Source: Acidimicrobiia bacterium
Lineage (GTDB): Bacteria; Acidobacteriota; Vicinamibacteria; Vicinamibacterales; CAVVIG01
Assembly (NCBI GenBank): GCA_016871175.1
Contig: VFZL01000002.1
Coordinates: 124,001 to 188,000 of the forward strand
Direction: 5' to 3'
DNA length: 64,000 bases
Of this stretch, positions 2,132-44,937 are shown piece after piece. Position 1 is the stretch's first letter. Every line of letters begins with the position of its first letter. The position numbers were made by a program, and so were the translations under genes. The notes under the pieces are model-generated. The model was not told the DNA's origin, searched no databases, and was given only the letters and a program-made list of their open reading frames with translations.

Positions 2132-4468
2132 TCAATCCAGCAGATCGAACATCCGTGAGAACTTGATGATGAACGATCGGTCCATGCGCTCGGCGCGCGG
2201 AATCAAATCGTAGAGGCCGCGCGTATCGGTGTAGACCACGAACAAGCCGGTGTTGGCCGCCTGAAGCAGCCCGAATCGAAGGTTCATCGACCAGAGATCA
2301 GTCTGGTTGTTGTATTGCACGAGGGCCTGGAGGAATGCGCGGGTCGTGAACGAGTACGACACGCTCGTGCGAATAAGATTGACCGTGAACGAGGCCACCG
2401 GGAGCGTCACGTCGTTCGCCTGATGCGAGATCTCGGTGTTGAATGTTTCGCCGATTCGCGCCCGGACGCTGGACTGCAAGGTCCGACGAGTGCCGCCAAA
2501 GAACCCGCCGAGGAACGTCGTGACGCGGAAGCTGACTGGCGCGCCCTGATTGGTGAAAAACACCAGGTTCGCCTCCTTGTGCCGATAGTCCCCAGGGGGG
2601 ACGAACACGCGCGGGAAGATCTCGAACGGCGCGCGCACACCCTCCTGCGTCAGGTTCATGCCCGTGTGCATCTCGGCGCCGTTCTTCCACTGCCAGTGCA
2701 TATCGATGTGGTGGAAGCCGGTCTCCTGCATGCCGTCGAGCCCCCAGTACGCGCGATACAGCGTGTGCGGACGGAGCTCCTGGATCCGCATGAAGTTGGC
2801 CGGTCGAAACCGCGTCATCACGAACGCGTCGCCTTTGCGGTACGCGCGCCGATTAATGAACCCGGCTTCCGGATTGAACTGATCGCCGACTTCCTGGTAC
2901 CCGGCGTTGACATCGACGCGCTGGAGTTGCGTGCGCGACCGGACGTTGAACGCGTCGGTTCGCCCGCCGCAGCTCGCTGCTCGGCACGGCGTCTGTGTCT
3001 TCGAGAGGAATCCCGTGACGACGGAATTCTGTCGAATGCCGAGACGGCCATCTATCGAGTACGTTCGGTTGTAGTCCGATGCAGAACTGAACTGGCCCCT
3101 GCCTTGACGATTGACGATCAACATACCGAGCGACGATCGATTCGGCAGGTCGCGGCTCAATCGAACGACGCCAAAGTTGTTGCTCGGGACGACACCGCGG
3201 TTGATACTCCGAAAGTCCATCTCCTCCGTCTGCATGTTGAGCAGGCCGACGTTGAAGCGGCCCGCTTTTCCGGACACACGGGCACCCGCCACGATCGGAA
3301 TCCGCTGTCCCGTGGACGAGATGCCGATCCGGCGACTAAAGAAGAGATCCACCTCGCCCGGATTGCCGACCGTGAAGAACCCGGAGTTTTCGAGGAAGAA
3401 GGGGCGCTTTTCAGGGAAGAAGAGACTGAAGCGATCCAGGTTGACCTGCTGGTCGTCCACTTCGACCTGGGCGAAGTCGGTGTTGACCGTCCCGTCGAGC
3501 GCCAGGCTCGGCGTCAGGTTGTACTTGAGGTCGACACCGACGTTTTGCTGCAGATCCGTCGGTACCCTCCCGTTCAGTGGCTTTTCCCCGCTCGCAATCG
3601 CGTTGCCCAGCGCGTACGGCGTCACGCGCAGCGTGCGGAGTATGGGGGCTTGAACCCCCACCATCGATCCCGCGAGCGATACACGATTCAAGTCGTACTG
3701 GCGGGGAATCTGCGCCCAGTATGACCGCTCGTTGCGGCGTCGAATGTTGCGTTGGAAGTTCAATCCCCACGTGTGTCCCGAGCCGCCAGGAAAGCGCAGG
3801 GTGCGAAACGGAATCGCGAACTCCGCGGTCCAGCCGAGGTCCGTGATTGTCGTCTGGACGCGCCACGCGCCGTCCCAGTTCAAGTTGAAGCCGCCGCCCG
3901 ACCCGGACATCTGCTGCCCGAATCGCAAGCCTCCACCGCCTTGACCCTCGTTTGTCACTTGACCGTCGTACTCGATGCCGGCTGGATTGGTCCCGAAGAT
4001 GAAACCGTTCTGCGTGTCGCGATAGGTGTCGAACAGCATCCGGAAGCTGTCGGTCTCGTCCAGGTCCGCGTCGCGGCGCGCGTCCGACACGACGATCGAG
4101 CCGGGGTCGTTGTCATAGCAGACGACCCCCACGTACAGCGTTTCTGCGTCGAAGACGACCCGCACCTCGGTACGCTCCGAGGCCGGCTGCCCCTGATCGG
4201 GTTGCTCCTGCCAGAAATCCGTGATCGGCACGGCGTTCTGCCAGATCGACTCGCCCAGCACGTCGCCGTCGATGGTCGGCCCCTCGTTGACACGGCTCGC
4301 AGACAAGACCGGGCGCGGGCGCAACGCGAAAAGACCGGCGGCCGCCGGCGCCTGTCCCTGCGGCCGTTGCGCCAGAGCGTTTGCGACCAGCAGCGAGGCG
4401 ATCGCGGTCCCGCACAAGAAGGTTCGTCGTACAGAGGTCACTCGAAGCATCGTGCAGATCGGGATCAT
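2132..4468 (-). CDS. CBM9-like / DUF5916 outer-membrane-type protein
   Basis: A 778-residue exported protein; an internal ATG at 4450 gives a tighter signal peptide and may be the true start, since neither has a clear Shine-Dalgarno. After the signal (AIASLLVANALAQ) comes a carbohydrate-binding-module-9-like domain at about 55-200, with PTIDGDVLGESIWQNA and VVFDAETLYVGVVCYDND. The rest, about 240-778, is the DUF5916 region, rich in alternating strands such as FNVGLLNMQTEEMDF and resembling an outer-membrane barrel. Known CBM9 domains bind sugar ends, but many DUF5916 proteins have no tested ligand. It is the last gene of a minus-strand block, almost touching the thioesterase gene. Binding or passage of glycans is inference. 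Confidence 0.8.
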   Translation of the reverse strand: MIPICTMLRVTSVRRTFLCGTAIASLLVANALAQRPQGQAPAAAGLFALRPRPVLSASRVNEGPTIDGDVLGESIWQNAVPITDFWQEQPDQGQPASERTEVRVVFDAETLYVGVVCYDNDPGSIVVSDARRDADLDETDSFRMLFDTYRDTQNGFIFGTNPAGIEYDGQVTNEGQGGGGLRFGQQMSGSGGGFNLNWDGAWRVQTTITDLGWTAEFAIPFRTLRFPGGSGHTWGLNFQRNIRRRNERSYWAQIPRQYDLNRVSLAGSMVGVQAPILRTLRVTPYALGNAIASGEKPLNGRVPTDLQQNVGVDLKYNLTPSLALDGTVNTDFAQVEVDDQQVNLDRFSLFFPEKRPFFLENSGFFTVGNPGEVDLFFSRRIGISSTGQRIPIVAGARVSGKAGRFNVGLLNMQTEEMDFRSINRGVVPSNNFGVVRLSRDLPNRSSLGMLIVNRQGRGQFSSASDYNRTYSIDGRLGIRQNSVVTGFLSKTQTPCRAASCGGRTDAFNVRSRTQLQRVDVNAGYQEVGDQFNPEAGFINRRAYRKGDAFVMTRFRPANFMRIQELRPHTLYRAYWGLDGMQETGFHHIDMHWQWKNGAEMHTGMNLTQEGVRAPFEIFPRVFVPPGDYRHKEANLVFFTNQGAPVSFRVTTFLGGFFGGTRRTLQSSVRARIGETFNTEISHQANDVTLPVASFTVNLIRTSVSYSFTTRAFLQALVQYNNQTDLWSMNLRFGLLQAANTGLFVVYTDTRGLYDLIPRAERMDRSFIIKFSRMFDLLD

Positions 4469-4469
4469 A

Positions 4470-4916
4470 TCAGCCGGGCTGGTGGCGGGATAGCGGCTCG
4501 AGCGCAGAGCGAATCACCGTCGGGATTGGGACAGGCACGCGTGTGTCCCGATCGACATACACATGCACGAAGCGCCCAATGGCACACGGCTCGTCGTCGC
4601 CTGCGCGGAAGAGCGCGATCCGGTAGACCACGCTTGTCGAGCCCAGTCGCTCGATCGCGAGGGCCGCGTCGATCGCATCAGGAAAGGACAACGGCTTCAA
4701 GAACTGACATCCCGTTTCGGCGACAATCCCGATCGCGGGGAGCGCACGAATATCGGTGCCCGTCGCGTCGAGGAGAAACCCATTCACCGCCGTATCGAAG
4801 AACGAGTAATACGCGACGTTGTTGACGTGACCGTAGTGGTCGTTGTCCATCCACCGGGTCTGAATGGGACGCAGCACGGGGAAGTCCGCTCGGCGCAGAA
4901 GGGGGATGGCTGGCAT
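4470..4916 (-). CDS. Hotdog-fold acyl-CoA thioesterase (YbgC/4HBT-like)
   Basis: A 148-residue protein from the ATG at 4916 (MPAIPLLRR); an upstream ATG at 4970 would add a run unlike the family. RWMDNDHYGHVNNVAYYSFFD at about 21-41 is the 4HBT catalytic signature, with D26 in the place of the nucleophile/base Asp and GHVNN following. Length is normal for this cytoplasmic family, which hydrolyses acyl-CoA or aryl-CoA thioesters. It follows the flavoprotein and Cfa-like genes on the same strand (74-base gap), so an acyl-lipid context is likely. The acyl group is not predictable. Confidence 0.85.
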   Translation of the reverse strand: MPAIPLLRRADFPVLRPIQTRWMDNDHYGHVNNVAYYSFFDTAVNGFLLDATGTDIRALPAIGIVAETGCQFLKPLSFPDAIDAALAIERLGSTSVVYRIALFRAGDDEPCAIGRFVHVYVDRDTRVPVPIPTVIRSALEPLSRHQPG

Positions 4917-4990
4917 TGCGCAAGGGTACTGCAGGGAGTGGGCAGAGACGAGGCCGCAGACGCTGAGCACCGAACCGGCGCGCCGCTATG

Positions 4991-6124
4991 TCATCGCGCG
5001 CTCCCCGAGCGCACGAACCAGCGATCGAGGACGAGGTGGCGGACGAGCCACGTGGAGGCGAGCAGTGCGGGTGCAAGTCGAGGGGCGAGTCGCGCGGCGG
5101 TCGATCGGGTCGCCGACTGTCGGTGGAGCGTTGCGTGCCGCATGCGTGCCGTGAGCCGCCGTTCGTACGGCGACAGTCGATCGCGGGTGAACCTGCCTCC
5201 GCGTAGGGTAGCTTCGACGATCGTCTGGGCCGCGAGCAGGCCGGATTCGACGGCGGGCCGAATGCCCTCGCCACTCTCCGGATATGCGAGCCCCGCCGCA
5301 TCGCCCACCAGCAGCACGCCATCGTCGACCACACGAGGCCGGCGATCCGATCCCAGCCGATAGGCGTGGCCACGCCACGGGCTGCCGCTGCCCAGCCCCA
5401 CGATTCGCCGGTCGTTCAGGAACTCCGCAAATGCCTCAATGTCGTCAGGAACCGGCGGCGCGAAGGGTGCGCGGCCGTAGCGCCCGAATCCGATGTTCAC
5501 GAACGCTTGCTTCGGAAAACACCATCCGTAGCCGGTGAGGTCGGGCGTGAAATACAGATCGACCAGTTCCGGGTCGGCACGCGCGCCCCAGCGTAGGCTG
5601 GCGCGCGGGACCTCGATCTCCTGCGCCGCGACGACTGGTGGGCGGTCCTCCGCTGGCGCGAGCGCACGAGCCGCCGGACAGAGGTGGTCGCAGGCGCCGA
5701 CCAACATCGGCGCCTGCAGGCCGCCGTTGACGATCCACGAACCGCTGTGGCGCTCGAGACGATCGACGGCGGTGCTCTGGATCACGCGCGCACCGGAGCG
5801 ATTGAGCAGGAAGTGATCGAACTCGCACCGGCGGATGCCGTAGCTCACCGGTCGGTCGTACCGGACCACCGCCTCTCGGTTTCGTCCGATCCGTCCAACC
5901 CGAAAACCGGTGGTCGGCTGTAGTGTGCGCCCATGCGCGTACTCCGTCACGTCGACATCGAGTGCCGAGAGCACTTGCGGCGTGACCCACCCTGCGCACA
6001 CCTTGTCTCGTGGGAACCTCGCCCGGTCCACGACCACGACATCGAGGCCAGCGTGGCGCAGACCCCAGGCGCACGAAGAGCCAGCGGGTCCACCGCCAAC
6101 GACGACGACATCGCAGGTGTCCAT
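4991..6124 (-). CDS. Geranylgeranyl-reductase-like FAD oxidoreductase
   Basis: A 377-residue flavoprotein. The N-terminal Rossmann motif VVVVGGGPAGSSCAWGLRHAG and RARFPRDKVCAGWV fit the geranylgeranyl reductase family, which reduces isoprenoid or other lipid double bonds. The second FAD motif is VLLVGDAAGLAYPESGEGIRPAVESG at about 272-297. GACDHLCPAARAL sits where related proteins carry GAxGHxCPVAR. The start is only 6 bases after the stop of the Cfa-like methyltransferase gene, so the two are very probably cotranscribed and translationally coupled. A lipid-acting reductase or dehydrogenase is the best guess; a menaquinone or polyprenyl substrate is equally possible. Confidence 0.82.
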   Translation of the reverse strand: MDTCDVVVVGGGPAGSSCAWGLRHAGLDVVVVDRARFPRDKVCAGWVTPQVLSALDVDVTEYAHGRTLQPTTGFRVGRIGRNREAVVRYDRPVSYGIRRCEFDHFLLNRSGARVIQSTAVDRLERHSGSWIVNGGLQAPMLVGACDHLCPAARALAPAEDRPPVVAAQEIEVPRASLRWGARADPELVDLYFTPDLTGYGWCFPKQAFVNIGFGRYGRAPFAPPVPDDIEAFAEFLNDRRIVGLGSGSPWRGHAYRLGSDRRPRVVDDGVLLVGDAAGLAYPESGEGIRPAVESGLLAAQTIVEATLRGGRFTRDRLSPYERRLTARMRHATLHRQSATRSTAARLAPRLAPALLASTWLVRHLVLDRWFVRSGSAR

Positions 6125-31334: not shown

Positions 31335-32678
31335 TCACCTCGCCAATTTGTTGCCTGCGATCCACACCGAGTCGATCTCGCGCGTGTGACGGATGTCTGT
31401 CAGCGGATTCGCGGTAAGGACGATCAGGTCCGCCCACTTGCCGCGCTCGAGCGTGCCCAGGTCGTCGATGCGAAGTGCTCGCGCCGCGGCCCCAGTAGCC
31501 GAGACCAGAGCTTGCATCGGGCTCAGCCCGGCCTTGACCATCAGCTCAATCTCTCGATGCTCGTTGTAGCCTTGCCAGCGGCCCACCACGGCGCCGCTAT
31601 CGGTTCCCATCGCCACCGTCACGCCACCATCGACGAGGAGCTTCACATTCCGCATGCCCTGCTCGAGGGATTTCTTCGTCATCTGGGCTTCGGAGCTCCC
31701 GCGGATCTTGTCGTGGAAAGTCGGAGCGGAGACCTCCTTGAGATCGAAGCGGAAGGTGGCGATGCCTTTCTGGAAGAACGGCTCCTTGACGTAGGTGGGG
31801 CCTGATTCAAATTCGAACACGGCCACGTCGCGAGTCAAGGTCGGAATGTACCCGACGTTCTTCGCCTTCAGCGTGGCAATGAACGCCTTGTCGACGTCCT
31901 GATCACGAATGCTGTGAGCGATGACGTCGAGACCCGCGTCGACCAGCTGCTTTGCTTGATCGAGGTAGAAGAGGTGTGCCGCCACCCGCAGCTTGTGCTT
32001 GTGCGCTTGCTCGATGACGGCGCGGTAGACATCCGGTGCCATGTCGCCTGCCGTCTTGAACTGCGTGGGGCTGCCTGTTCGCGAGCCGTCGGCGAATGCC
32101 AGCCGATTCATGCGCGTCTTGACCATGTTCACGCGCTGCGAAGCGACTTTGTCGACCTTCTGCCTGGCGTCGTCGACCGACTCGCCGACCACCGCGGCGC
32201 CGGCGGTGTACAGACGCGCCCGATCGAGCGCTCCGCGTGCCTGTTCTTCGTGGAGCTTGACACTCTCGACGCCATCGTCGCCGAGGCTCTGGAGGGTCGT
32301 CACGCCGTATCCAGCGTAGAGGCGGAGCTGCTGGAGGATCTGCTCACGCAGCGGAAGGGCCTTGTCGCCAGCACCCAGATGTCCATGCGCGTTGATGAAC
32401 CCGGGCACGATGGTCCTGCCCGTGAGGTCGACGGTGGTCGCACCGGCCGGTGGGGTGACGGCGGACGACGGACCGACGGACTCGATGCGACCGCCGTTGA
32501 TGACGATGGTGGCGCGCTCGATAGCGGGGCGTCCCGTGCCATCGATGAGGCGCGCATTCGCCAGGGCGACGGCAGCACCCGCGCTGGCCTGCGCCTGTGG
32601 ACGAACGCTCGCGAAAGGTAGGAGCGCCAGGATCCCGCATGCGGTCACGAGCACGCGTGTCCGCCAGACCTTCTTCAC
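31335..32678 (-). CDS. Exported metal-dependent amidohydrolase
   Basis: A 447-residue protein (GTG start with a perfect GAGGAGG upstream) and signal peptide. It is an amidohydrolase-superfamily TIM barrel of the imidazolonepropionase/prolidase-like group: VPGFINAHGHLG (H98, H100 as first metal ligands), AAHLFYLD and VIAHSIRDQD for the later histidines, and AMGTDSGAVVG for the aspartate. ALNARL-like strands and ARALRIDDLGTLERGKWADLIVL close the composite domain. The family hydrolyses C-N bonds in cyclic amides or dipeptides; the substrate is unknown. It lies between the degenerate MBL-fold gene and the cupin gene. Confidence 0.86.
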   Translation of the reverse strand: MKKVWRTRVLVTACGILALLPFASVRPQAQASAGAAVALANARLIDGTGRPAIERATIVINGGRIESVGPSSAVTPPAGATTVDLTGRTIVPGFINAHGHLGAGDKALPLREQILQQLRLYAGYGVTTLQSLGDDGVESVKLHEEQARGALDRARLYTAGAAVVGESVDDARQKVDKVASQRVNMVKTRMNRLAFADGSRTGSPTQFKTAGDMAPDVYRAVIEQAHKHKLRVAAHLFYLDQAKQLVDAGLDVIAHSIRDQDVDKAFIATLKAKNVGYIPTLTRDVAVFEFESGPTYVKEPFFQKGIATFRFDLKEVSAPTFHDKIRGSSEAQMTKKSLEQGMRNVKLLVDGGVTVAMGTDSGAVVGRWQGYNEHREIELMVKAGLSPMQALVSATGAAARALRIDDLGTLERGKWADLIVLTANPLTDIRHTREIDSVWIAGNKLAR

Positions 32679-32713: not shown

Positions 32714-33661
32714 TTACTTTCCGAGCTCGCGGTAGATCTTCTCGATGTTCTCTTTCGCTCGGGACAGGTCGTAGCCCTTGTAACGCTCAGGCATCTGCAG
32801 CGTGGCGGCCGCCTGCTCGGCCGTCTTGCCAGCCGCGAAGGCCTGACGCACCGATGCGACGAAGTCCTTCAGGAACTCTGAGTATTCTTGCGTCTCGGCC
32901 CAGGTCATCGTTCGGGGGTTGGCAAAGATGGCGGACGGCGATCTTGGGTCGGCCATTGAGGCCGACGCGTCGACCCGTCCAGTCGTGACACGCGCGATGT
33001 TCTTCAGCTCTGCCACGGCTTTGGCCACGGTCTCCGCGATTGCGATCACGCTACCGCCGTTGGCGGTGTCGACAGCCGGCAGCGCTTTCGACGGGAAGAG
33101 GTCGCCGAAGTGCGCGAGCCGCTTTTCGGGGAAGACGACGACGAGGTCACCGTCGGTGTAGGCGTTGCCGAAGTAGTAGAGATCGATCCGATCCAGGCCG
33201 TCGAGCAGCGTCAGGCGGTCGGTCACGATCTTGTTGGGCAACGCCCTCGCGTTCGGTCCCTTGAAGGCGTCCAAACTCTCCATGCGTGCCTTCGTGTTCG
33301 AGTGGGCGACGATCTCCTTTGCCGTCGGATAGTCGACGTTGCCGCTCACGTGCTCCGGACTGGCGTGGGTGTTGATGATCGTGACGACCGGTTGGTCGGT
33401 GACGCCCTGGATGTTCTCGACCACCAACTTGCCCCATCCGACCGGCTTGTTGTCGACGAGCAAGACGCCCTCGTCGCGCATCAATGCGAGGATGTTGTTG
33501 TTGCCGGTCAAGACGTACAGGATGTCGCGGACGTTCAGCGTCTGCATCTTGACGACGCGCGCGTCTTGCGCGTGCGCAACGCCCATCGCCGCCGCGATGG
33601 ACACCACGACCAGCGTTACGCCACACGCAATTGGGGCGACCCATCGACGTTGACGGTTCAC
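32714..33661 (-). CDS. Metallo-beta-lactamase-fold protein with degenerate metal site
   Basis: A 315-residue protein from a GTG at 33661 with AAGGAG upstream. Its signal peptide ends near VAHAQD. The MBL fold is clear (NNNILALMRDEGVLLVDNKP, IINTHASPEHVSGNVDYP, LYYFGNAYTDGDLVVVFPEKRLAHFGDLF), but ligands are changed. HxHxDH reads H99-A-S101-P-E103-H104, the third-motif histidine is Y168, D187 is kept, and the last histidine is R229 in VTTGRVD. Related periplasmic MBL proteins keep all of these. Hydrolase activity is doubtful; a binding role is possible. It is in one run with the quinoprotein, amidohydrolase and cupin genes. Confidence 0.82.
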   Translation of the reverse strand: MNRQRRWVAPIACGVTLVVVSIAAAMGVAHAQDARVVKMQTLNVRDILYVLTGNNNILALMRDEGVLLVDNKPVGWGKLVVENIQGVTDQPVVTIINTHASPEHVSGNVDYPTAKEIVAHSNTKARMESLDAFKGPNARALPNKIVTDRLTLLDGLDRIDLYYFGNAYTDGDLVVVFPEKRLAHFGDLFPSKALPAVDTANGGSVIAIAETVAKAVAELKNIARVTTGRVDASASMADPRSPSAIFANPRTMTWAETQEYSEFLKDFVASVRQAFAAGKTAEQAAATLQMPERYKGYDLSRAKENIEKIYRELGK

Positions 33662-33713
33662 GTCTGCTTCTCCTTGTCGTCGCGGGGCCACCACGGCCCC
33701 CATGCGTCGCGCC

Positions 33714-35141
33714 CTACGATCCGTCCGCCGCCAGCGACGCGCAGATGATTTCTTCGTCGTTGCGCGCGTAGATGTGGCGATTGGCGTAAGCGGGGTACAC
33801 CCAGTTCACATGCACGAGCTGGCGGCGGTTCTGCGGCTGTGACGTCGGTTTGATCAGATTCGTGCGGCTAATCTCTTGGTAGCCGGAGGGATCCGGCTTG
33901 ACGATGATGAGCTCGCCGCGGTCGTTGTTGATGAACAGCCGATCGCCATGGCGTACGATCACGCCCGATGCCCAGCGCGCGCGCTCCTTCGTCACCGCCT
34001 GCGTTTCCCACACCCGTTCGCCCGTGGACGCCTTCAGGCACCGGAACTGGCCGTAGCTGCAGATGCCGTAGATGTAGTCGCCGATGATGACTGGCGTCGT
34101 GATCACCGCGTGCAGGCCGTCGGTCTGGATTTCGCTGTCGCTCTTGCCCTTCCACTTCACCGAGGCGCTCGGCCTCTTGGGGTCGAGCGTCAGCATCATC
34201 GGGCCGTCGTAGAACGTGGTGAAGAAGAGCTGCTGTCTGTCGAGCACCGGGATCGCGACCGTCATCGATCCCCCGACCTTGTACGGCTGGTCCCAGTACT
34301 GCTTGCCCGTCTCTGGATCGAGCGATGCCACCGCACCCGGATACCAGATGATCAACTGTCGAACGCCGCCGGCGTTGACGATGACCGGCTGTGCGACGCC
34401 GAGATCTGCCTCCGTCGATAGCGCCCGCCAGACTTCCTTGCCCGTCATCTTGTCGAATGCGACGACTTTCGCGTCCGGCTTCCCATCGCGGCGGCCGTCG
34501 ACGAGCGCGATGAGCAGGCGACCGTCCACGAGCGGTGAGCTCGCGAAGCCCCAGTCGAATGCCCACTTGAGTCGATCGGCGCCGTAGTCCTTCGCGAAGT
34601 CCTTCTGCCAGAGGATGGCGCCCGTCCTGACGTTGAGACAGAGCAGCTTCCCATCCGCGCCGACGACGTACACGCGGTCCTCGTCCACGGTGGGCGTCGC
34701 GCGCGGGCCGGTGGGCCATTGGATGCCGCGGTAGTCGGCGATCCACTCTTGGATCCACAGGATCTTCCCGGTCTTCTCGTCGAGTGCGAGGGCGCGCTCG
34801 GTACCCTTGGGTTTGTTCGTCTCCTCCCAATCGAGCACGAACACGCGTCCGTCCGCGATGGCCGGACCCGTGTAGCCCGCCTTGATCGGGGTCCGCCACA
34901 GCACCTTCAGTCCGCTTTCGGGAAACTTGTCCAGGATGCCGGTTTCGCGCCAGACGTTGAGCCGACCCTTGCCGCCGACCTCAGGCCAGTCCTCGACGCC
35001 CCTCGCGGGTGCCCCGGTTGCGCGTTGCGCGAGCGCACCGAACATCTGTGACGGCGTCAGCGCGGCAAGGCCCGTGCCCGTGCAGAGCAAGCGAAGCAGG
35101 TCGCGGCGGGTTGTCAGCAGTGAGCCGCTGTCACCAAGCAT
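33714..35141 (-). CDS. Tat-exported PQQ-like beta-propeller protein
   Basis: A 475-residue protein from the ATG at 35141 (AGGAGG upstream). TTRRDLLRLLCTGTGLAALTP is a twin-arginine signal with R12-R13. The mature part is a PQQ-enzyme-type propeller with repeated strands such as VFVLDWEETN, RALALDEKTGKILWIQEW, LLCLNVRTGAILWQKDF, VVAFDKMTGKEVWRAL and CLKASTGERVWETQ. I see no quinoprotein disulfide pair or clear active-site Asp, so it may be a propeller scaffold rather than a dehydrogenase. It heads the run MBL-like, amidohydrolase, cupin (52-base gap to the next gene). Confidence 0.83.
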   Translation of the reverse strand: MLGDSGSLLTTRRDLLRLLCTGTGLAALTPSQMFGALAQRATGAPARGVEDWPEVGGKGRLNVWRETGILDKFPESGLKVLWRTPIKAGYTGPAIADGRVFVLDWEETNKPKGTERALALDEKTGKILWIQEWIADYRGIQWPTGPRATPTVDEDRVYVVGADGKLLCLNVRTGAILWQKDFAKDYGADRLKWAFDWGFASSPLVDGRLLIALVDGRRDGKPDAKVVAFDKMTGKEVWRALSTEADLGVAQPVIVNAGGVRQLIIWYPGAVASLDPETGKQYWDQPYKVGGSMTVAIPVLDRQQLFFTTFYDGPMMLTLDPKRPSASVKWKGKSDSEIQTDGLHAVITTPVIIGDYIYGICSYGQFRCLKASTGERVWETQAVTKERARWASGVIVRHGDRLFINNDRGELIIVKPDPSGYQEISRTNLIKPTSQPQNRRQLVHVNWVYPAYANRHIYARNDEEIICASLAADGS

Positions 35142-35261: not shown

Positions 35262-35681
35262 CTAGATGTGCCTGAGCTCCAGGGCCTTGAGCACTGCCCG
35301 CGTGCGGTCGCGCACGCCGAGCTTGGACAAGATGCTTGACGCATGGTTCTTGATCGTGCCTTCGGCCGATCCCAGCGCCTCGGCAATCTCTTTGTTGCTG
35401 TAGCCGCCGGCCATCAGCCGCAGGATTTCGACCTCGCGCTTCGTCAGGGGATCGGGTGGGCTCAGCGCGTCGAAGTCGCTTTGCATCCGCTGGAATCCGC
35501 GGAGGACGCGCTCGGTCACCGCCGGCCGGACGACGGATCCGCCCGCCGCGACGGTGCGGACCGCGTCGGTCAGCACTTCGAGCGACACGTCCTTCAAGAG
35601 ATAGCCTTTCGCGCCTGCTTTCACGCCCTCGAGCAGCACCTCATCATCGTCAAACGTCGTGAGCAGGATGATGGGCGGAGC
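35262..35681 (-). pseudogene. 3' fragment of a NarL/FixJ-family response regulator
   Basis: About 140 codons encode the end of a receiver domain (PPIILLTTFDDDEVLLEGVKAGAKGYLLKD, split at 20 residues in the original numbering) and a complete LuxR-type HTH: LTKREVEILRLMAGG, YSNKEIAEALGSAEGTIKNH, ASSILSKLGVRDRTRAVLKAL. The first two-thirds of the receiver, including the phospho-accepting aspartate, is absent. Upstream of about 35681 the same strand encodes an unrelated TonB-receptor N-terminus in a different frame. So this is a truncated gene fused at a breakpoint. It has no evident start; expression would need an internal initiation codon. Confidence 0.8.
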
Positions 35682-36712
35682 TGGTCGAGGCCGACACTCT
35701 TCACCGTGCCGACGAGCCACAGACGATCCCGCAGCGCTAGACCCGAGATCGTTCCGCCCGTATCGAAGATATGAAGGATCTTCGCGCCAGGCACGATGTT
35801 GGGATTCGCGGCCAGGGCGCGGGCGGGCACGGCGGCCAAGAGGTCGCGCCGCAGCTCGGGCGTGAGGTTGTTCGACTGGAAGTTCTGATTCGATCCGTTG
35901 GCCATGAAGGATCCGCGGAACGCGTTCGATCCGGTCTTCGTGATCATGTTGTAGACGATGCCGCCGCGCGTGTTCTCGGCAGATCCGTTCGAAGTCTGAT
36001 AGTTGATCTCCTCGAACATGAACGGGTCGTAGTACATCGTCACGTTGCCCGTGGCGCCGACGGCGGCGTCGATGTTCATGCCGTCGATCTGATACTGGGA
36101 CTCGCCATTCGGGTTGCTGCCGTGGACGGTGATCTTCGACTGTTGGAACGATTCGGACCCGCCCACGTCGTACTTGTTCATCACGATGCTGGGCACGACA
36201 CGCGCGATGCCCCACAGATCGTTCGTTCCCGGTAACGTGTCGAGCACCTGGCGGTCCATGACGGTCTGGTTGAGACCGGTCGTCGTGTCGAGCAGCGGGG
36301 CCTGCCCCGACACCGTGATCGATTCACTCACGTCGCCCAGCTCCAACTGGATGTCCGCACGGGCTGTGGCAGCCGCGTTGACCACGATGTCCGAAATCAC
36401 CACAGGGCGGAACCCGGTGAGCTGCCCGCGGACGCTGTAGCGCCCCGGCACCAGGCGGACGAACTGGTAGGCGCCGCGCTCGTCGGTCACCGTCTCCTGA
36501 CTGCCGCCGATGGTGCCTGGATTGGACAGGGTGACCGCCACGCCAGGCAGCACGGCGCCCGACGCGTCCGACACCGATCCCGCGATCGCCCCAACACCCT
36601 GCGCGAGCGACGCCTCGGAATCGGCCAGGAAGAGGAGAGTGAGAATCACGGGGAGCGTGAACGCTCGTGGGCGTCGCGCGGCAGAGAGTGCAGCGGTCAT
36701 GGCGGGAGGCAT
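35678..36712 (-). pseudogene. 5' fragment of an Oar-like TonB-dependent receptor
   Basis: About 345 codons from ATG 36712 (or 36700) encode a signal peptide (LTLLFLADSEASLAQ), a carboxypeptidase-regulatory domain (VGAIAGSVSDASGAVLPGV, GAYQFVRLVPGRYSVRGQL), the plug (DRQVLDTLPGTNDLWGIAR, SQYQIDGMNIDAAVGATG, NMITKTGSNAFRGSF) and the first barrel strands. After LWLVGTVKSVGLDQL the sequence turns into response-regulator DNA, and this frame stops at 35621. Family members run to about 1000 residues, so roughly two-thirds is missing. It is the third receptor in this minus-strand run. Either a real deletion or an assembly join made the fusion. Confidence 0.85.
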
Positions 36713-36847: not shown

Positions 36848-38746
36848 CTAGCGACTCACGGCTACGCTCTCGAAGTTGCGCCGCGCGTCAGCGTGATTCG
36901 GGTCGATTGCGATCGCGCGGCGGAAGTGCTCGATCGCTTCCGGGGTGCGCCCCGTCAGGCGAAGGCTCTCGCCCAGGTTGTTGTGGACATCTGCGGAATC
37001 AGGGAGGAACGCTGCCGCCTGCCGCAGATGACCGACGGCCTCCTCGAGCCGCCGTGTGGCGCGATAGATCTGACCGAGGTTGTTGTGCGCTTCGCCGTAG
37101 TCGGATCGGGCGCGAATCGCCTCGCGGTAGTGCTCTACAGCCTGACTCAGGTTGCCCTGCGACGCGGATATCACGGCGAGGTTGTAGTGCGCGCCGGCTG
37201 CATTGGAGTCGAGGCGTACCGCGGTGCGGAGATGATCAACCGCCTCTCCGAGGCGACCGGTCTGGAGCAGCACCGCTCCAAGGTTGATATGCGCGGAGAC
37301 ATGGTTCGGCGCGACTGCGAGCGCACGGCGATACAGCTCCGCGGCCTCTGGCAGCCGTCCCTGGTCCTTGAGTGCGCCGCCGAGACCGTACAGCACGCGC
37401 GCGTTGCGCGGCTGTTTGCGCAACAGGTACCGGAAGTGGGCCTCCTGCAGCTGCAGGCGCTCCGCTGGACTCTGCAGCTCCACCTGGAGCTGTAGGTGGG
37501 CCATCTCGTCCGACGATCGGTTTCCCGATCTGATTCGAACCGGCGGATGGTGTTGCTGAGCAGCGTTCCCAGCCGAATTGTCGTACACCCACCGCATGTG
37601 GACGCTGCTGCCCTTCGGGAGCGTCATCGGCTCGCTGAGCCGATAGACATCCTGCCACTTGAAGTCCCAACGATCGATGCGCAGCAGCGGTCGTGTCAAA
37701 CCGTCGGGCAGTGTGGCCGAGGCCGACAGGCTCTTCCCGAGGAAGTGCGCGTGCGGATACACGGCATGCACGCGAACGTCGACCGGGAGCTCGAACCGAT
37801 CCTCGAGGACGAAATCCGATACGCCGGGCGGGATGTCCAACTGATCGTCGGCATCGAGCATCAATACGTACAGCGGCGTGCGCGACTCCGACTCGGATGC
37901 GAAGTAGAGACCGATTGACGGCTCGATGATCTCTGGTTTGCCAGACGGCAGCATGTGCAATTGCAGGATCAGGTCCGAGCCCGCTGGAAGCTTCCAGGCC
38001 GCACCCTTCACGCCCGGGAAGGGATGCATACCGGGCGTCCAGCCGATGAGGCTTCCATCCGGCATGTAGGCATCGCCCATCTCCATCCCCTCGAACCCGG
38101 GCTGACCGTCGCCTTGATCGCGACGGCGCGAGGTGCGGAGATCGTCGACAGCCATCTGCGCGTGGTGCACGTACTTCGCATTGCCCGGTCGTAGTTCGAC
38201 GGTGCGGACGTGCCGCGAAGAAGTCAGAGGCAGCGGCACGACGAAGTTTCGCCAGATGTCGCTCGACTCGGCTGGCAGTGTGTAGGCCCTCGGCAAGCCC
38301 ACGACGAGGTCTGGCGTTCCAAGCTGCCAGCCACCCAGGTTGGATGGCGCAGGTGGCAGCTCCATCGGATTGCCCTCCGCCGCGCCTTCGTCGACCCAAC
38401 GCTGCAGCAGATCGCGTTGTTGCGGCGTGAGCCGTCGTTCACCGAGGAAGGAGCCGTAGCCCGGCTCCGGCAGCCACGGTGGCATCACCGCGTTCCGCGT
38501 GACCTCCGCGATGGTCCGCGTGCGAGTCTTGACGCTTTGATAGTCGAGCACGCTGAACGGCGCCGAGCCGCTCGGATGATGGCACGCAGCACACTTCTCA
38601 TAGAGAAGTGGCGCGACATCGCGCGAGAAGGTGACAGGTGCGGACTGCGCGGTGTGAGGAGCCGGTGAATCGGGTGCGCGGTCGCACGCGCCGAAGGTGA
38701 GAAGCGCCGCTACAACGAGCCCGACACGAGAGGACAGAGCGCTCAC
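36848..38746 (-). CDS. Lipoprotein: cytochrome c + copper-monooxygenase-like + TPR
   Basis: A 632-residue protein with GTG start and lipobox LLTFGAC-D (C21). Residues 40-60 hold a heme site, YEKCAACHHPSG (C52, C55, H56), in a cytochrome-like domain. Residues about 160-420 look like the peptidylglycine/dopamine monooxygenase fold: KYVHHAQMAVDDL (H194-H195), LILQLHMLPSG (H264), AVYPHAHFLGKSL (H332, H334) and VHMRWVYDNS. Residues 430-630 are about six TPR units, e.g. AHYNLAVISASQGNLSQAVEHY. Such fusions are found in Acidobacteriota and Planctomycetes; function is unproven but copper-dependent oxidation at the membrane is plausible. It follows the second TonB receptor after 83 bases. Confidence 0.83.
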   Translation of the reverse strand: MSALSSRVGLVVAALLTFGACDRAPDSPAPHTAQSAPVTFSRDVAPLLYEKCAACHHPSGSAPFSVLDYQSVKTRTRTIAEVTRNAVMPPWLPEPGYGSFLGERRLTPQQRDLLQRWVDEGAAEGNPMELPPAPSNLGGWQLGTPDLVVGLPRAYTLPAESSDIWRNFVVPLPLTSSRHVRTVELRPGNAKYVHHAQMAVDDLRTSRRRDQGDGQPGFEGMEMGDAYMPDGSLIGWTPGMHPFPGVKGAAWKLPAGSDLILQLHMLPSGKPEIIEPSIGLYFASESESRTPLYVLMLDADDQLDIPPGVSDFVLEDRFELPVDVRVHAVYPHAHFLGKSLSASATLPDGLTRPLLRIDRWDFKWQDVYRLSEPMTLPKGSSVHMRWVYDNSAGNAAQQHHPPVRIRSGNRSSDEMAHLQLQVELQSPAERLQLQEAHFRYLLRKQPRNARVLYGLGGALKDQGRLPEAAELYRRALAVAPNHVSAHINLGAVLLQTGRLGEAVDHLRTAVRLDSNAAGAHYNLAVISASQGNLSQAVEHYREAIRARSDYGEAHNNLGQIYRATRRLEEAVGHLRQAAAFLPDSADVHNNLGESLRLTGRTPEAIEHFRRAIAIDPNHADARRNFESVAVSR

Positions 38747-38829: not shown

Positions 38830-41800
38830 TCAGAAAGAAAACCGCCCGCCGAACTGCACCTGAAACGAGATCGGCAACGTCGTTGTGGACCCGATGCCGC
38901 CGAGATAGCCGATCGGCTGGTTGTAGGTGGCCGGCGCAAAGGCATTGCCGCCGAAGCTATTCCCGAAGTTCGCCCGGTTCAGCATGTTGTAGAACTCGGC
39001 GAAGAGCGACAGCCGACGCGACGTGGCCAGGTCGATGTGCTTCGTCACACGCGCGTTCATGCTCACGAGCGCCTTGCCGCGCGCGTTGTACGGACCGAGC
39101 GGGTTTCCGTTGGCGTCCCGCAGGTAGAGCGAACCGGTTCCGGCCGGGTTCACGGCGCTGTACTGCGTGTACGGGCGGGCGGACGCGGCCGTGAACGAGG
39201 GCGCCACGTCGATGCCGTAAGCCAGTGGCACGACACCGGCCACGGTGACCCGATGCCGCTCATCCACCAGCGTTGGTCCCCACTCGTAATCTGCGTAGAT
39301 ATCTCCCCCCAGCGTGTTGAGTACCTCCGGACCCACGTGCCCGCCTTGTGTGGTGAAGTCGGTGGATCCGCCCATGCCGCGCGCCCAGGCCAGCGTGTAG
39401 TTCACGGTCAACGCCGTCTGGGCCAAGCGGCGCTCGAAGTGGACGTCTATGCCGTCGTACTTGCCGTCATTGCAGGAGCACAACACCGTTGATGGCCCGA
39501 GGAGCGCCGGGTCGCCGTACACCCGTTGCAGATCGGCTGCCAGGGCTCGCACCCGACCGGTGGCCGGGTTGTTGTCGTGATCGATCAACGGATTGATCTC
39601 GAGAGCCCGCCATCCATTCTTCGTTTCGACGTGCAGGTAGTCCACCGAGAGGACCGTGGTCGGCGAGAACAGATGCGAGAAGCCAAGAGAGGAATTGATG
39701 GAGTAGGCGTCGGCGAAGTCAGGCGTGTACCACGCGCCGGTCGCGTTTCCCCCGCGCAGGAACTCGGTCGCAGAGAACGGTGGACCAGGCGGCAGCGGGC
39801 TCACGCCGTAGACGTAGTTGGCCAGGGCTCCAGAGCCGATTGCCGAGTTGGCCAACGTCGATCGGAGGTACACCGTCTCCTGCTGCTCGAGGTTCCGCGC
39901 ATAGGCCGAGGTGATGATGCCTGTGGCGTAGAACACACCGAAGCTCCCGCGGACGACGTCGGTGCCGTCGCCCTTGGCGTCCCACGCGGCGCCGAGGCGC
40001 GGACCGAAGTTGTTGGTGTCGGTCTTCGGCAGGGCGCCGTACGGATGGCCGATGTCCTTGAGGACCTTATAGGTGCGGCTCTGATCCCAGCAGCACTGGT
40101 TGCTCATCCTGTTGAGGTCGTATCGCAGGCCCAGGTTGAGCGTCACACGCTGGGCGATCTTCCAGTCGTCCTGGACGAACCCGGCGAAGAAGAACGCCTT
40201 GTTCGACCACGCGTCCACCGGCGCAAGGCTCGTCTGGGTGATCGAGCGAACGATGCCGGGCGTTCGGAAGCCCTGAGGATACCGGCCGTTCGTGTTGTTG
40301 AGGATCACCGACGGATCATCGAAGAAGGTGATGTTGCCAGGGCTCTGGGTCATCAGGTTGGCGTAGAACGTCGGCAGCTTGGCGTAGTCCACGCCGAACT
40401 TCACCGAGTGGTTGCCAATCTGCTTCGAGAGGTTGTTCATGAACTCCAGCTTGGTCTCGTAGTTCACCCAGCTTGGCTGCGCGAAGTTCGGCTGCGCGGA
40501 CCCCACCGACGGAAAGTTGAGCCGCCGTGGTACGCAGGCAGCCAGATCCATGCAGGAGAATCCGCTGACGTCATCGTGCAGGTAGTAGGCCCACTGAGCC
40601 CGGAATTCGTTGACGGTGCTCGGATTGATGATCCATGTCCAGCCGCCGGCGGCCGAGTAGAGGTTCTGATCGTTGCGCTGCGCGAATGGGTTCGATTTCC
40701 AGAGGGCGTGCGTGTTGTTCAGCGCGTTGTTGTCCACGTAGCCGTACTGCGCCATGTAGCGCACGAACCCGTTGTGATTCTGGGCGAGCTGGAAGTTGAC
40801 CTTGCTCTGGAACAGGAGGTCCCGGAAGGGTTGCGGCACGGCGCCGCTCGCCTCCACGCCGATGCCGAGGCCCTCCATGATGCGCAACTCGTTGATCTGG
40901 CGCTCGGAGCGGGGGAGCTGGAAATCCTGAATGATCCGCTCGGTGGCGCCGAAGAACCACATTCTGTCCTTCATCAGCGGGCCGCCGAGTGACCCTCCGA
41001 ACTGGAATCGCTTGAAGGGCTGCTCTCCGAAACCGCCGTTCTCCCGTTTCGAGAAGTAGTCTGTGGCGATGAGCGATTCGTTGCGGCCGAAGACGAAGCC
41101 GGTGCCCTTGAACAGGTTCGTCCCGGACTTGCTGGCGAGCACGACCACGGTCGATCCTCGCCCGTACTCGGCCTGGAACCCAGCGCCGAGCGCGCGGAAC
41201 TCTTCGATGCCGTCAAGGCTCAGCTGAACCAAGGTCCCGCCGTCCTGGTCTTCCTTGTTGTCGACGCCGTCGACATACATGTTGTAACTACGGCCCGTGT
41301 TGCCCGCGAACGACACGTAGCCTGCCGCATGTCCGTGTGAACCGCTCGCTGGTATCTCACGAGCGCCGGGCAGGAGCGTCATCATCGCGGCGAGGCTTCG
41401 GTTCACCATCGGGAGCTGCTGCACCTCGGTCTGGCGAATCGTGGACGACACGAGCGCCTGGGTGGTCTCGACCAGAGGAATCGACCCGGCGACGGTGAGC
41501 GTTTCTGAGAGGCCCGCGAGACCGAGCTTGAAGTCTTGAGTCACCGTGGAGCCCGCGATGAGCTCGACGGTCCGACTGGCGGGCGCAAACCCCGACAGAT
41601 CGGTCGTGACCTCGTACGTGCCGCGGTCGAGCGCAGGCACGCTGAACAGACCCTGCTCGTTGGTCACCGTGGACCGCGTCGCCCCGGTGTTGACGTTCTT
41701 CAGATTGATCGTGACGCCCGGGAGAACGGCATCACCTTGATCGACGATGCGACCGGTGATGGTGCCGGTTTGCGCGAAGACCGTAGCCGACAAGCTCAGC

Positions 41801-41835
41801 AGAACGCCGAAAGCGACCGCCAATCGATGCGCCAT
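38830..41835 (-). CDS. TonB-dependent receptor, Oar-like (tandem copy 2)
   Basis: About 1001 residues from the ATG at 41835, with GGAGGG upstream. Signal peptide to about VFAQTG; carboxypeptidase-regulatory domain about 25-105 (ITGRIVDQGDAVLPGVTI, QGLFSVPALDRGTYEVTT); plug about 115-240 (QQLPMVNRSLAAMMTLLPGA, GRSYNMYVDGVDNKEDQDGG); then a 22-strand-type barrel ending in FQVQFGGRFSF, whose terminal Phe is the usual BAM signal. It would import a substrate through the outer membrane using TonB energy; none can be named. It matches the upstream copy along nearly its whole length, so the two arose by tandem duplication. Main differences are scattered substitutions in barrel loops. Confidence 0.92.
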   Translation of the reverse strand: MAHRLAVAFGVLLSLSATVFAQTGTITGRIVDQGDAVLPGVTINLKNVNTGATRSTVTNEQGLFSVPALDRGTYEVTTDLSGFAPASRTVELIAGSTVTQDFKLGLAGLSETLTVAGSIPLVETTQALVSSTIRQTEVQQLPMVNRSLAAMMTLLPGAREIPASGSHGHAAGYVSFAGNTGRSYNMYVDGVDNKEDQDGGTLVQLSLDGIEEFRALGAGFQAEYGRGSTVVVLASKSGTNLFKGTGFVFGRNESLIATDYFSKRENGGFGEQPFKRFQFGGSLGGPLMKDRMWFFGATERIIQDFQLPRSERQINELRIMEGLGIGVEASGAVPQPFRDLLFQSKVNFQLAQNHNGFVRYMAQYGYVDNNALNNTHALWKSNPFAQRNDQNLYSAAGGWTWIINPSTVNEFRAQWAYYLHDDVSGFSCMDLAACVPRRLNFPSVGSAQPNFAQPSWVNYETKLEFMNNLSKQIGNHSVKFGVDYAKLPTFYANLMTQSPGNITFFDDPSVILNNTNGRYPQGFRTPGIVRSITQTSLAPVDAWSNKAFFFAGFVQDDWKIAQRVTLNLGLRYDLNRMSNQCCWDQSRTYKVLKDIGHPYGALPKTDTNNFGPRLGAAWDAKGDGTDVVRGSFGVFYATGIITSAYARNLEQQETVYLRSTLANSAIGSGALANYVYGVSPLPPGPPFSATEFLRGGNATGAWYTPDFADAYSINSSLGFSHLFSPTTVLSVDYLHVETKNGWRALEINPLIDHDNNPATGRVRALAADLQRVYGDPALLGPSTVLCSCNDGKYDGIDVHFERRLAQTALTVNYTLAWARGMGGSTDFTTQGGHVGPEVLNTLGGDIYADYEWGPTLVDERHRVTVAGVVPLAYGIDVAPSFTAASARPYTQYSAVNPAGTGSLYLRDANGNPLGPYNARGKALVSMNARVTKHIDLATSRRLSLFAEFYNMLNRANFGNSFGGNAFAPATYNQPIGYLGGIGSTTTLPISFQVQFGGRFSF

Positions 41836-41925
41836 GCGCGGCAACCCTCCGCTGATGAATAGAGGGTGGCCTGTCGAGTCGTACGGTGGACTCTAGAGCC
41901 ACTCCCGAGCCTACCGGGAAACGCG

Positions 41926-44900
41926 CTAGAACGAGAACCGCCCGCCGAACTGCACCTGGAACGAAATCGGCAACGTCGTCGTCGAGCCGATGCCCCCAAG
42001 GTAGCCGTTCGGCTGATTGTAGGTGGCCGGCGTGAAGGCGTTGCCGAAGTAGTTGTTGCCGAAGTTCGCACGGTTCAGGATGTTGTAGAACTCGGCGAAG
42101 AGGGAGAGCCGGTTCCCGTTCGGCAAGTCGAGCTGCTTTGTCACACGAGCATTGGCGCTGATGAGTGCCTTGCCTCGTGCGTTGTAGGGGCCGGCCGGAT
42201 TCCCGTTCTCGTCGCGCACGTACAGGAGGCCGGAGCCCTGCGGATTGACGGCACTGTACTGTGTGTACGGACGTGCTGAGGCAGCCGTAAACGACGGCGC
42301 GACGTCAATCTTGAGCGGGAGCGGAATGACGCCGGCGACGGTCACCCGATGCCGTTCGTCCATCAGCGTCGGACCCCATTCGTAGTCCTCGTAGATCCGC
42401 CCGCCCAGCGTGTCGATGACCTCGGGGCCGACGTGCCCGCCTTGCGTGGTGAAGTCGGTCGACCCACCCATGCCGCGCGCCCACGCCAGGGTGTAGTTCA
42501 CGGTCAGCGCGGTTTGCGCGAGACGCCGCTCGAAGTGCACGTCCACACCGTCGTACTTGCCTTCATTGCAGGAGCACAGCACCTGCGTCGGTCCGAGTCG
42601 CGCGGGGTCGCCGTACACCCGCTGTAGATCCGCGGCGAGCGCTCGCACGCGTCCCGTCGCGGGGTTGTTGTCGTGATCGATGAGCGGATTGATCTCGAGC
42701 GACCGCCACCCGTTCTTGGTTTCGACGTGGAGGTAGTCCACGGAGAGGACAGTGGTCGGCGAGAAGAGATGCGAAAAGCCGGCAGACGAGTTGATCGAGT
42801 AGGCGTCAGCGAAGTCTGGCTTGTACCAGGAGCCCGTCGTGTTGCCGCCTACCGGGAACTCCGTGACCGCGAACGGTGGGGCTGGTGGCAACGGGCTGAC
42901 GCCGTAGACGTAGTTCGCGAGCGGACCCGAGCCGATCGCCGAGTTCGCGATGGTCGATCGGATGAACACGGTGTCCTGCTGCTCGAAGTTGCGCACGTAC
43001 GCGGACGTGATAATGCCGGTGGCGTAGAAGACGCCGAAGCTGCCGCGGACGACGTTCTTGCCGTCGCCGTTCACGTCATACGCAGCGCCGAGCCGAGGAC
43101 CGAAGTTGTTGGTATCAGTCTTCGGCAGCGCACCGTACGGATGGCCGATGTCCTTGAGGATCTTGTAGCTGCGGCTCCGGTCCCAGCAGCACTGGTTGCT
43201 CATCTGGTTGAGGTCGTAGCGCAGGCCCAGGTTGAGTGTCATCTTGGGCGAGACCTTCCAGTCGTCCTGTACGAACCCGGCGAAGAAGAACGCCTTGTTC
43301 GACCAGGCATCCACGGGAGCCAGACTGCTTTGCGTGATGGATCGCACGATGCCCGGCGTCTGGAATCCTTGTGGATAGCGGCCGTTGGTGTTGTTGAGGA
43401 TGACCGAGGGGTCATCGAAGAACGCAATATTCCCAGGGGAGAACACCATCAGGTTCGCGTAGAAGGTTGGCAGCTTCGCGTAGTCTACGCCGAACTTGAA
43501 CGAGTGGTTCCCGACCTGCTTCGAGAAGTTGTTCATGAACTCGAGCTTGGTCTCGTAGTTCACCCACCGATCCTGCGCGAAGAATGGACGATCGGAGGTC
43601 ACCGACGGGAACTGCAGTCGCTGCGGCACGCAGCGCGCGAGGTCCATGCAGGGGACGCCGTTGATGTCCTCGTGCAGGTAGTAGGCCCACTGCGCGCGGA
43701 ACTCGTTGACGGTGCTCGAATTGATGATCCACGTGTGGCCGCCGGCCAGCGAATACAGGTTCTGATCATTCCGTTGAGCGAAGGGGTTGGCGGCCCACAA
43801 CGCGTTGTTGACGGCGAGGGCGTTGTTGTCGACGTAGCCGTACTGCGCCATGTAGCGGACGAAGCCGTTCTGGTTCTGCGAGAGCTGGAAGTTGACCTTG
43901 CCCTGGAAGAGCAGGTCTCGGAACGGCTGCGGCACCGCGGCGCCGGCCACGACGCCGATGCCCAGGCCCTCCATAACACGCAGCTCACGGACGATGCCCT
44001 CGGATCGCGGAAGCTGGAAATCCTGAATGATCCGCTCGGTGGACGTGAAGAACCACGCCTTGTCCTTCCTCAGAGGGCCGCCCAACGATCCGCCGAACTG
44101 GAAGCGCTTGAACGGCTGTTCACCGAGACCGCGATTCTCCGGCTTGGAGAAGTAGTCGGTCGCGATGAGCGATTCGTTGCGGCCGAAGACGAACCCGGTG
44201 CCCTTGAACAGGTTCGTCCCGGACTTGCTGGCGAGGACGACGACCGTGGATCCACGGCCGTACTCGGCCTGGAATCCGGCGCCCAGCGCGCGGAACTCTT
44301 CGATGCCGTCAAGGCTCAATTGGACCAAGGTCCCGCCGTCCTGGTCCTCCTTGTTGTCGACGCCGTCGACATACATGTTGTAGCTGCGACCCGTGTTGCC
44401 CGCGAACGACACGTAGCCCGCCGCATGGCCATGAGATCCGCTCGCCGGCACCTCGCGCGCGCCAGGCAGCAGGGTCATCATGCCCGCGAGGCTCCGATTG
44501 ACCATCGGGATCTGCTGCACCTCGGTCTGCCGGATCGTGGAGGACACGAGCGCCTGCGTGGTCTCGATGAGCGGGATCGATCCGGCCACCGTCAAGGTCT
44601 CGGAGAGTCCTGCGAGACCGAGCTTGAAGTCCTGCGTCACCGTCGAGCCAGCGATGAGCTCGAGGGTGCGGCTGGCGGCCGCGAACCCCGAGAGGTCGGT
44701 CGTGATTTCGTACCGCCCGCGCTCGAGAGCGGGCACCGTGTAAAGCCCTTGCTCGTTCGTCACCGTTGAGCGGCTGGCGCCGGTATCGACATTTCGCAAG
44801 TTGACGGAGACGCCAGGGAGAACCGCATCATCCTGATCGACGACGCGACCGTTGATCGTGCCTGTTTGCCCGAGCACCGTGGACGCGGAGCCGAGCAGCA

Positions 44901-44937
44901 GGAGCGCACTGAGCGCCGCCGCTAGCCGATGAACCAT
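41926..44937 (-). CDS. TonB-dependent receptor, Oar-like (tandem copy 1)
   Basis: A 1003-residue protein; GGAGG lies 8 bases before the ATG at 44937. It has the same layout as copy 2: signal to about VLGQTG, carboxypeptidase-regulatory domain, plug with QQIPMVNRSLAGMMTLLPGA and NMYVDGVDNKEDQDGGTLVQ, and barrel ending FQVQFGGRFSF. Most residues are identical to copy 2. Differences cluster in the signal peptide and in putative surface loops, for example VPCMDLARCVPQRLQFP versus FSCMDLAACVPRRLNFP. It lies 208 bases after the c-heme propeller gene. Two similar transporters side by side suggest dosage or loop diversification for related ligands. Confidence 0.92.
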   Translation of the reverse strand: MVHRLAAALSALLLLGSASTVLGQTGTINGRVVDQDDAVLPGVSVNLRNVDTGASRSTVTNEQGLYTVPALERGRYEITTDLSGFAAASRTLELIAGSTVTQDFKLGLAGLSETLTVAGSIPLIETTQALVSSTIRQTEVQQIPMVNRSLAGMMTLLPGAREVPASGSHGHAAGYVSFAGNTGRSYNMYVDGVDNKEDQDGGTLVQLSLDGIEEFRALGAGFQAEYGRGSTVVVLASKSGTNLFKGTGFVFGRNESLIATDYFSKPENRGLGEQPFKRFQFGGSLGGPLRKDKAWFFTSTERIIQDFQLPRSEGIVRELRVMEGLGIGVVAGAAVPQPFRDLLFQGKVNFQLSQNQNGFVRYMAQYGYVDNNALAVNNALWAANPFAQRNDQNLYSLAGGHTWIINSSTVNEFRAQWAYYLHEDINGVPCMDLARCVPQRLQFPSVTSDRPFFAQDRWVNYETKLEFMNNFSKQVGNHSFKFGVDYAKLPTFYANLMVFSPGNIAFFDDPSVILNNTNGRYPQGFQTPGIVRSITQSSLAPVDAWSNKAFFFAGFVQDDWKVSPKMTLNLGLRYDLNQMSNQCCWDRSRSYKILKDIGHPYGALPKTDTNNFGPRLGAAYDVNGDGKNVVRGSFGVFYATGIITSAYVRNFEQQDTVFIRSTIANSAIGSGPLANYVYGVSPLPPAPPFAVTEFPVGGNTTGSWYKPDFADAYSINSSAGFSHLFSPTTVLSVDYLHVETKNGWRSLEINPLIDHDNNPATGRVRALAADLQRVYGDPARLGPTQVLCSCNEGKYDGVDVHFERRLAQTALTVNYTLAWARGMGGSTDFTTQGGHVGPEVIDTLGGRIYEDYEWGPTLMDERHRVTVAGVIPLPLKIDVAPSFTAASARPYTQYSAVNPQGSGLLYVRDENGNPAGPYNARGKALISANARVTKQLDLPNGNRLSLFAEFYNILNRANFGNNYFGNAFTPATYNQPNGYLGGIGSTTTLPISFQVQFGGRFSF

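Follow-up and report, generated by a model that had tools for sequence, protein, structure and literature searches.

In bacteria, deletion between two genes is a general source of pseudogene pairs, in which two truncated genes meet at one point and share little sequence there. Two types of intact gene are relevant to the locus described here: receptors that match both PF13620 and PF25183 (OMP_b-brl_4), known as Oar-like receptors, and response regulators of the NarL/DesR/VraR type. In the window, by which we mean the whole 64,000-nucleotide stretch of DNA analysed, a piece of each is joined on the minus strand (Table 1). We read this arrangement, with a probability of about three in four, as a genuine and fairly recent deletion or rearrangement scar that joins two broken genes. 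The receptor stump shares the start, CarboxypepD_reg and about 345 aligned residues with Oar-like receptors, but has no barrel and stops at the position that corresponds to residue 332 of L111, a full-length paralog in the same genome. The regulator stump shares the GerE helix-turn-helix (HTH) and the last third of the receiver with NarL/DesR/VraR-type regulators, but misses about 75 first residues with the aspartate and has no cognate histidine kinase directly beside it, its neighbours being the receptor stump and a beta-propeller gene. From deletion-made pseudogene pairs the locus does not differ notably; the join is known from the assembly alone. The titles and abstract openings of the literature matches listed describe no similar scar.

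Table 1. Features at and around the join, in window coordinates
Feature	Position	Strand	Basis or remark
Regulator 3' stump: last third of receiver, intact LuxR-type (GerE) HTH, stop	35262..35678	minus	Pfam and homology
Receptor-frame run-on, out of frame, in regulator DNA	35621..35680	minus	Ends at TGA 35623-35621
Join	35676..35683	minus	Receptor similarity stops and regulator similarity starts; both frames overlap
Receptor 5' stump: start, CarboxypepD_reg, following region; barrel missing	35681..36712	minus	50-58% identity to receptors; CarboxypepD_reg 6e-18
Downstream neighbour: PQQ_2/BamB-type beta-propeller, intact	33714..35141	minus	Closest to own family
Upstream neighbour: TPR repeats and weak copper-monooxygenase C-terminal match, intact	36848..38746	minus	Pfam and family search

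The chimera is present in the sequence far beyond chance, because at the join identity switches from one group of relatives to the other and the protein matches end, and because the Pfam domains are split between the two pieces. Against three full-length regulator genes, the 60 bases 3' of the join showed 70-85% identity and the 60 bases 5' of it 38-43%; for random 60-mers from the window the median was 38% and the 95th percentile 45%. On the receptor side, identity to three receptors fell from 47-53% ahead of the join to 38-40% beyond it, a weaker contrast without a random control of its own that is backed by the receptor protein matches, which also end at the join. Pfam placed CarboxypepD_reg (6e-18) in one piece, and GerE (4.5e-19) with a partial Response_reg in the other. 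The receptor frame runs from an ATG at 36712 to its TGA with no internal stop, and the longest ORF that holds it spans 36790-35621 (389 aa). A second ORF of 317 aa, in a different minus-strand frame, ends with TAG at 35262. The two parental frames are out of frame with each other at the join, the exact base of which is ambiguous by a few bases, CTCCG being compatible with both sides. The first-pass annotation had proposed a chimera of a receptor and a response regulator, with a switch between 35676 and 35690 and both genes truncated at one point in different frames. The identity flip at 35676-35683 confirms the chimera and falls inside that interval, and the homology limits and the frames bear out the common, out-of-frame truncation.

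Some 345 codons from the 5' end of an Oar-like CarboxypepD_reg/beta-barrel receptor make up the receptor stump, with CarboxypepD_reg at residues 43-124. Pairwise alignment to receptors of 50-58% identity placed the end of homology at GLDQLR (about 35677-35681), past which most relatives continue with VGSYN, YLLGNY or a similar motif. In L111 the barrel model PF25183 starts at residue 349; the stump was cut before this part and lacks the C-terminal outer-membrane beta-barrel. A signal, a regulatory domain, a plug and the first barrel strands had been proposed for this piece at the outset; our comparison with the paralog does not bear out the barrel strands, since its barrel model starts past the cut. 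A product of the stump would presumably be unable to insert as, or form, a barrel. Pfam gave no match to a Plug domain in the fragment or in L111, which is of the same subfamily.

The window itself aside, the 13 best receptor matches in order of E-value were 51-58% identical to the stump, the next match being at 41%, and were spread over 8 of the 27 family genomes, own genome included. A comparison with relatives for a full-length receptor had been suggested earlier, and it turned up open frames of 944-1364 aa without a stop in 11 of the 13. The remaining two were a copy on contig C10 of the own genome, with stops, and one with a 446-aa frame. A stop interrupts the frame of the C10 copy (G000 C10:49327-52191; L112) within its N-terminal half (SAEVS*GG), so that this gene looks broken as well. 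Two partial matches lower in the ranking, G010 C12 (48% over 250 residues) and G005 C262 (52% over 168), could be further members of this receptor group. Two look-alike full-length Oar-like receptors lie in tandem just upstream in the window (38830-41844 and 41926-44937). In the sister genome G001, an Oar-like relative of these two (73% and 71% identity) lies close to the TPR gene, and the genes there are arranged differently. The best relative of the TPR gene was 52% identical, in a search that, like that with the receptor stump, covered the family.

What remains of the NarL/DesR-type response regulator is a 3' portion of ~138 codons. Its homology begins at CCG CCC (35678), with the protein matching from PPIILLTTF onward, and continues to the terminal TAG. 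GerE was matched over profile positions 1-56 of 57 and Response_reg only over positions 69-111 of 111 (the last 43), in agreement with the earlier description of this piece as the last third of a NarL-type receiver with an intact LuxR HTH. Compared with the regulator of the same-order genome G111, the first 75 residues are missing, including the phospho-acceptor aspartate stretch (DVVLLDVRMP in G111), and the stump is also without a start of its own. Its best NCBIfam match was to the MadR family, far below cut-off, and the best solved chains were those of VraR (5hev and 4gvp). The folds of both stumps, receptor and regulator, are known ones. Both stumps are best read as pseudogenes, because the receptor would lack its barrel and the regulator both its phospho-acceptor aspartate and its own start.

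Full-length counterparts of the regulator occur outside the family. At E <= 1e-25 it was matched in 11 of 162 genomes of the order, namely the own genome and ten others, and in none of the other 26 genomes of the family. The best same-order identities were 84, 84, 80 and 79%, with the 84% copies in another family, and in other families of the order the regulator is full length at 213 aa. We fetched eight same-order loci, and in six of these a kinase match lies just upstream of a regulator aligned over 213 residues, which is the kinase/regulator pair that the first-pass annotation had advised looking for in relatives. HisKA_3 and HATPase_c were matched in the G111 kinase, and a full receiver in the G111 regulator. 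Besides G111 itself, four full-length kinase matches were 39-60% identical to the G111 kinase, and a partial one (L229) was 47% identical over 70 residues. In the other two loci the regulator was either whole with the contig ending at once (L228) or cut by the contig end (L224, G091 contig C370, 2880-3281). The cut in L224 falls within about six codons of the scar breakpoint, probably by chance.

Among Pseudomonadota, kinase and regulator matches were both present, gene order aside, in 80 of 80 loci (the best 80 of 556 relatives). A receptor match around the regulator was found neither in these 80 nor in the eight same-order loci, the 15 receptor or flank loci compared held no match to the regulator stump, and no intact row of receptor, kinase and regulator occurred among the loci examined. 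The Pseudomonadota loci prompted us to consider a Xanthomonadales-type origin of the regulator, which we dropped because closer relatives (up to 84%) occur within the order and because of the placement of the stump in a tree. In this tree of 27 of the 89 rows, for which the bootstrap had not settled, the stump grouped with five same-order rows (93/93) and 18 Pseudomonadota rows stood apart (98/95).

Under our preferred reading, an Oar-like receptor gene and a kinase/regulator pair downstream on the same strand would have been cut and rejoined at the join. What went missing would be the barrel of the receptor (~600 codons), the kinase in full and ~75 codons from the start of the regulator. If the genes once stood in a row, the loss would amount to about 3.2 kb (612 + 388 + 75 codons), or 2.1 kb without an intervening kinase. 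The few bases shared at the join (CTCCG) would be compatible with illegitimate recombination. A deletion had been proposed from the start and is still the best reading, but the part of that proposal that called for one contiguous deletion gained no ancestral arrangement from the loci examined. We infer a single deletion and its size only as the simplest path, because no locus has receptor, kinase and regulator in a row.

We searched the own assembly (96.8% complete) for the missing parts and found no close copies of the kinase or of the receiver N-terminus. The G111 kinase gave three matches, the best at 34% on contig C17, and the G111 receiver N-terminus gave 36 with a highest identity of 46%. 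Of the receiver matches at 46%, one (C75:167-394) is close to the end of its contig. A search with the barrel half of the own paralog gave 38 matches, the top four by identity being the paralog itself (C2), C30 (49%), C10 (47%) and a 95-residue tail on C74 (45%). At 2801-5351, the 5.8-kb contig C74 (L208) carries this orphan C-terminal receptor tail, an rve-type integrase ORF and a weak HTH_Tnp_1 match below cut-off. The tail belongs to the same receptor subfamily (43-54% identity to 7 of 7 members compared). It is at most a candidate for the lost half of the window's receptor: nothing ties it to that copy, and a gap of about 500 residues would remain between the two pieces. It is possible that the rearrangement was more complex than one deletion, because an orphan tail of the subfamily sits on a contig with a transposase-type gene.

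The genes around the join were compared with those of relatives. The beta-propeller was 80 and 78% identical to copies in G021, 75% to G016, 74% to G001 and 73% to G018, all in the family, and at most 67% identical to those in other families of the order. Together with the metallo-beta-lactamase-like gene at 32714-33703 it forms a pair that is kept in four of five family loci (L119-L122, not L123). In L119, L121 and L123, where more than 2 kb upstream is present, neither a receptor nor a regulator-stump match stands beside this pair. Further downstream, the amidohydrolase-like protein encoded at 31338-32678, one of two genes tested there, had its best match in another family (G128, 57%, versus 54% in its own). 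The regulator stump has a GC content of 0.650 and a GC3 of 0.837 and resembles seven window genes (GC 0.63-0.66, GC3 0.76-0.86), unlike three f12 copies (GC 0.69-0.72, GC3 0.87-0.97).

A join of this kind could also be made in the assembly, by a chimeric read or a misjoin between two loci that in the organism lie apart and are undamaged. We consider this unlikely. The draft is fragmented, with 85 contigs, which would suit such an error, but assemblers need more shared bases for a k-mer misjoin than the few at this join, and the join region has no second copy in the genome at E <= 0.001 (of five matches, only the window covers query position ~1033). An artefact would likewise account for a regulator that has no close kin in the other family genomes and 84% kin in another family, and for the absence of an intact three-gene row. 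However, the composition of the stump is that of its own contig, and searches of the rest of the assembly gave no close copy of either lost half. If the regulator piece were foreign, two joins would have to fall within ~540 bases, since the next gene downstream has its closest relatives in its own family (80% versus at most 67%). The same gene (73-80% in its own family) argues against a cross-species contig chimera in which everything below 35680 is foreign; the amidohydrolase-like gene, with a best match elsewhere, fits an artefact but does not decide that question. With no repeat at the join, matched composition and a family-type gene directly downstream, the contig misjoin that the first-pass annotation had named as an alternative is less likely than a real scar, though still its rival.

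The regulator stump is little decayed. It has no stop in 140 codons and a dN/dS of 0.10-0.21 against six of eight same-order rows. Of 82 columns in which at least 95% of the 88 other rows agree, it differs at one; 80 of those rows are the Pseudomonadota sequences (best 80 of 556 relatives). The same count for six same-order rows was 2/84, 2/81, 3/84, 2/84, 8/83 and 3/81. Among the five nearest same-order rows dN/dS was 0.05-0.11, and in pairs with the most distant, L217, it was 0.15-0.20, which makes the branch of the stump a somewhat fast one. Three-taxon arithmetic gave a dN/dS of ~0.19 for the stump branch versus 0.03-0.07 for the two nearest kin, and if all of the excess is neutral, ~14% of the stump branch would be neutral. 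Constraint on this branch may thus have relaxed somewhat. Because the stump is so little decayed, the truncation looks recent on the scale of the branch, or else the HTH looks to be still constrained.

Such conservation, together with the intact HTH and the lack of stops, would also be expected if the stump were still translated as a receiver-less, constitutive LuxR-type DNA-binding protein, of ~120 aa through coupling at a GTGA overlap or of 74 aa from an ATG at 35486. Stand-alone GerE-type proteins of similar size exist (solved chain GERE 1fse, 74 aa). We regard a functional remnant as very improbable, however, as recent truncation explains the conservation equally well and inspection by eye revealed no convincing ribosome site. 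An in-frame regulator GTG at 35624 does overlap the receptor-frame stop TGA at 35623-35621, but it is an ancestral valine codon that is also in the G111 copy, so the overlap was inherited rather than evolved, and we give coupling little weight. We hold it to be more doubtful still that a kinase-controlled regulator became a receiver-free DNA-binding protein made from the receptor promoter by GTGA translational coupling; if this were true, the targets of the regulator would be rewired to the receptor's expression signal.

With a genuine scar as the preferred reading, the locus is an ordinary one with two dead stumps, and it holds no new biology unless the regulator stump is made. For annotation, it serves as a warning: a gene caller that took the 389-aa ORF for a "TonB-dependent receptor" or the 317-aa ORF for a "response regulator" would be wrong both times. 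The scar may also record the ongoing loss of a regulator with a patchy distribution.
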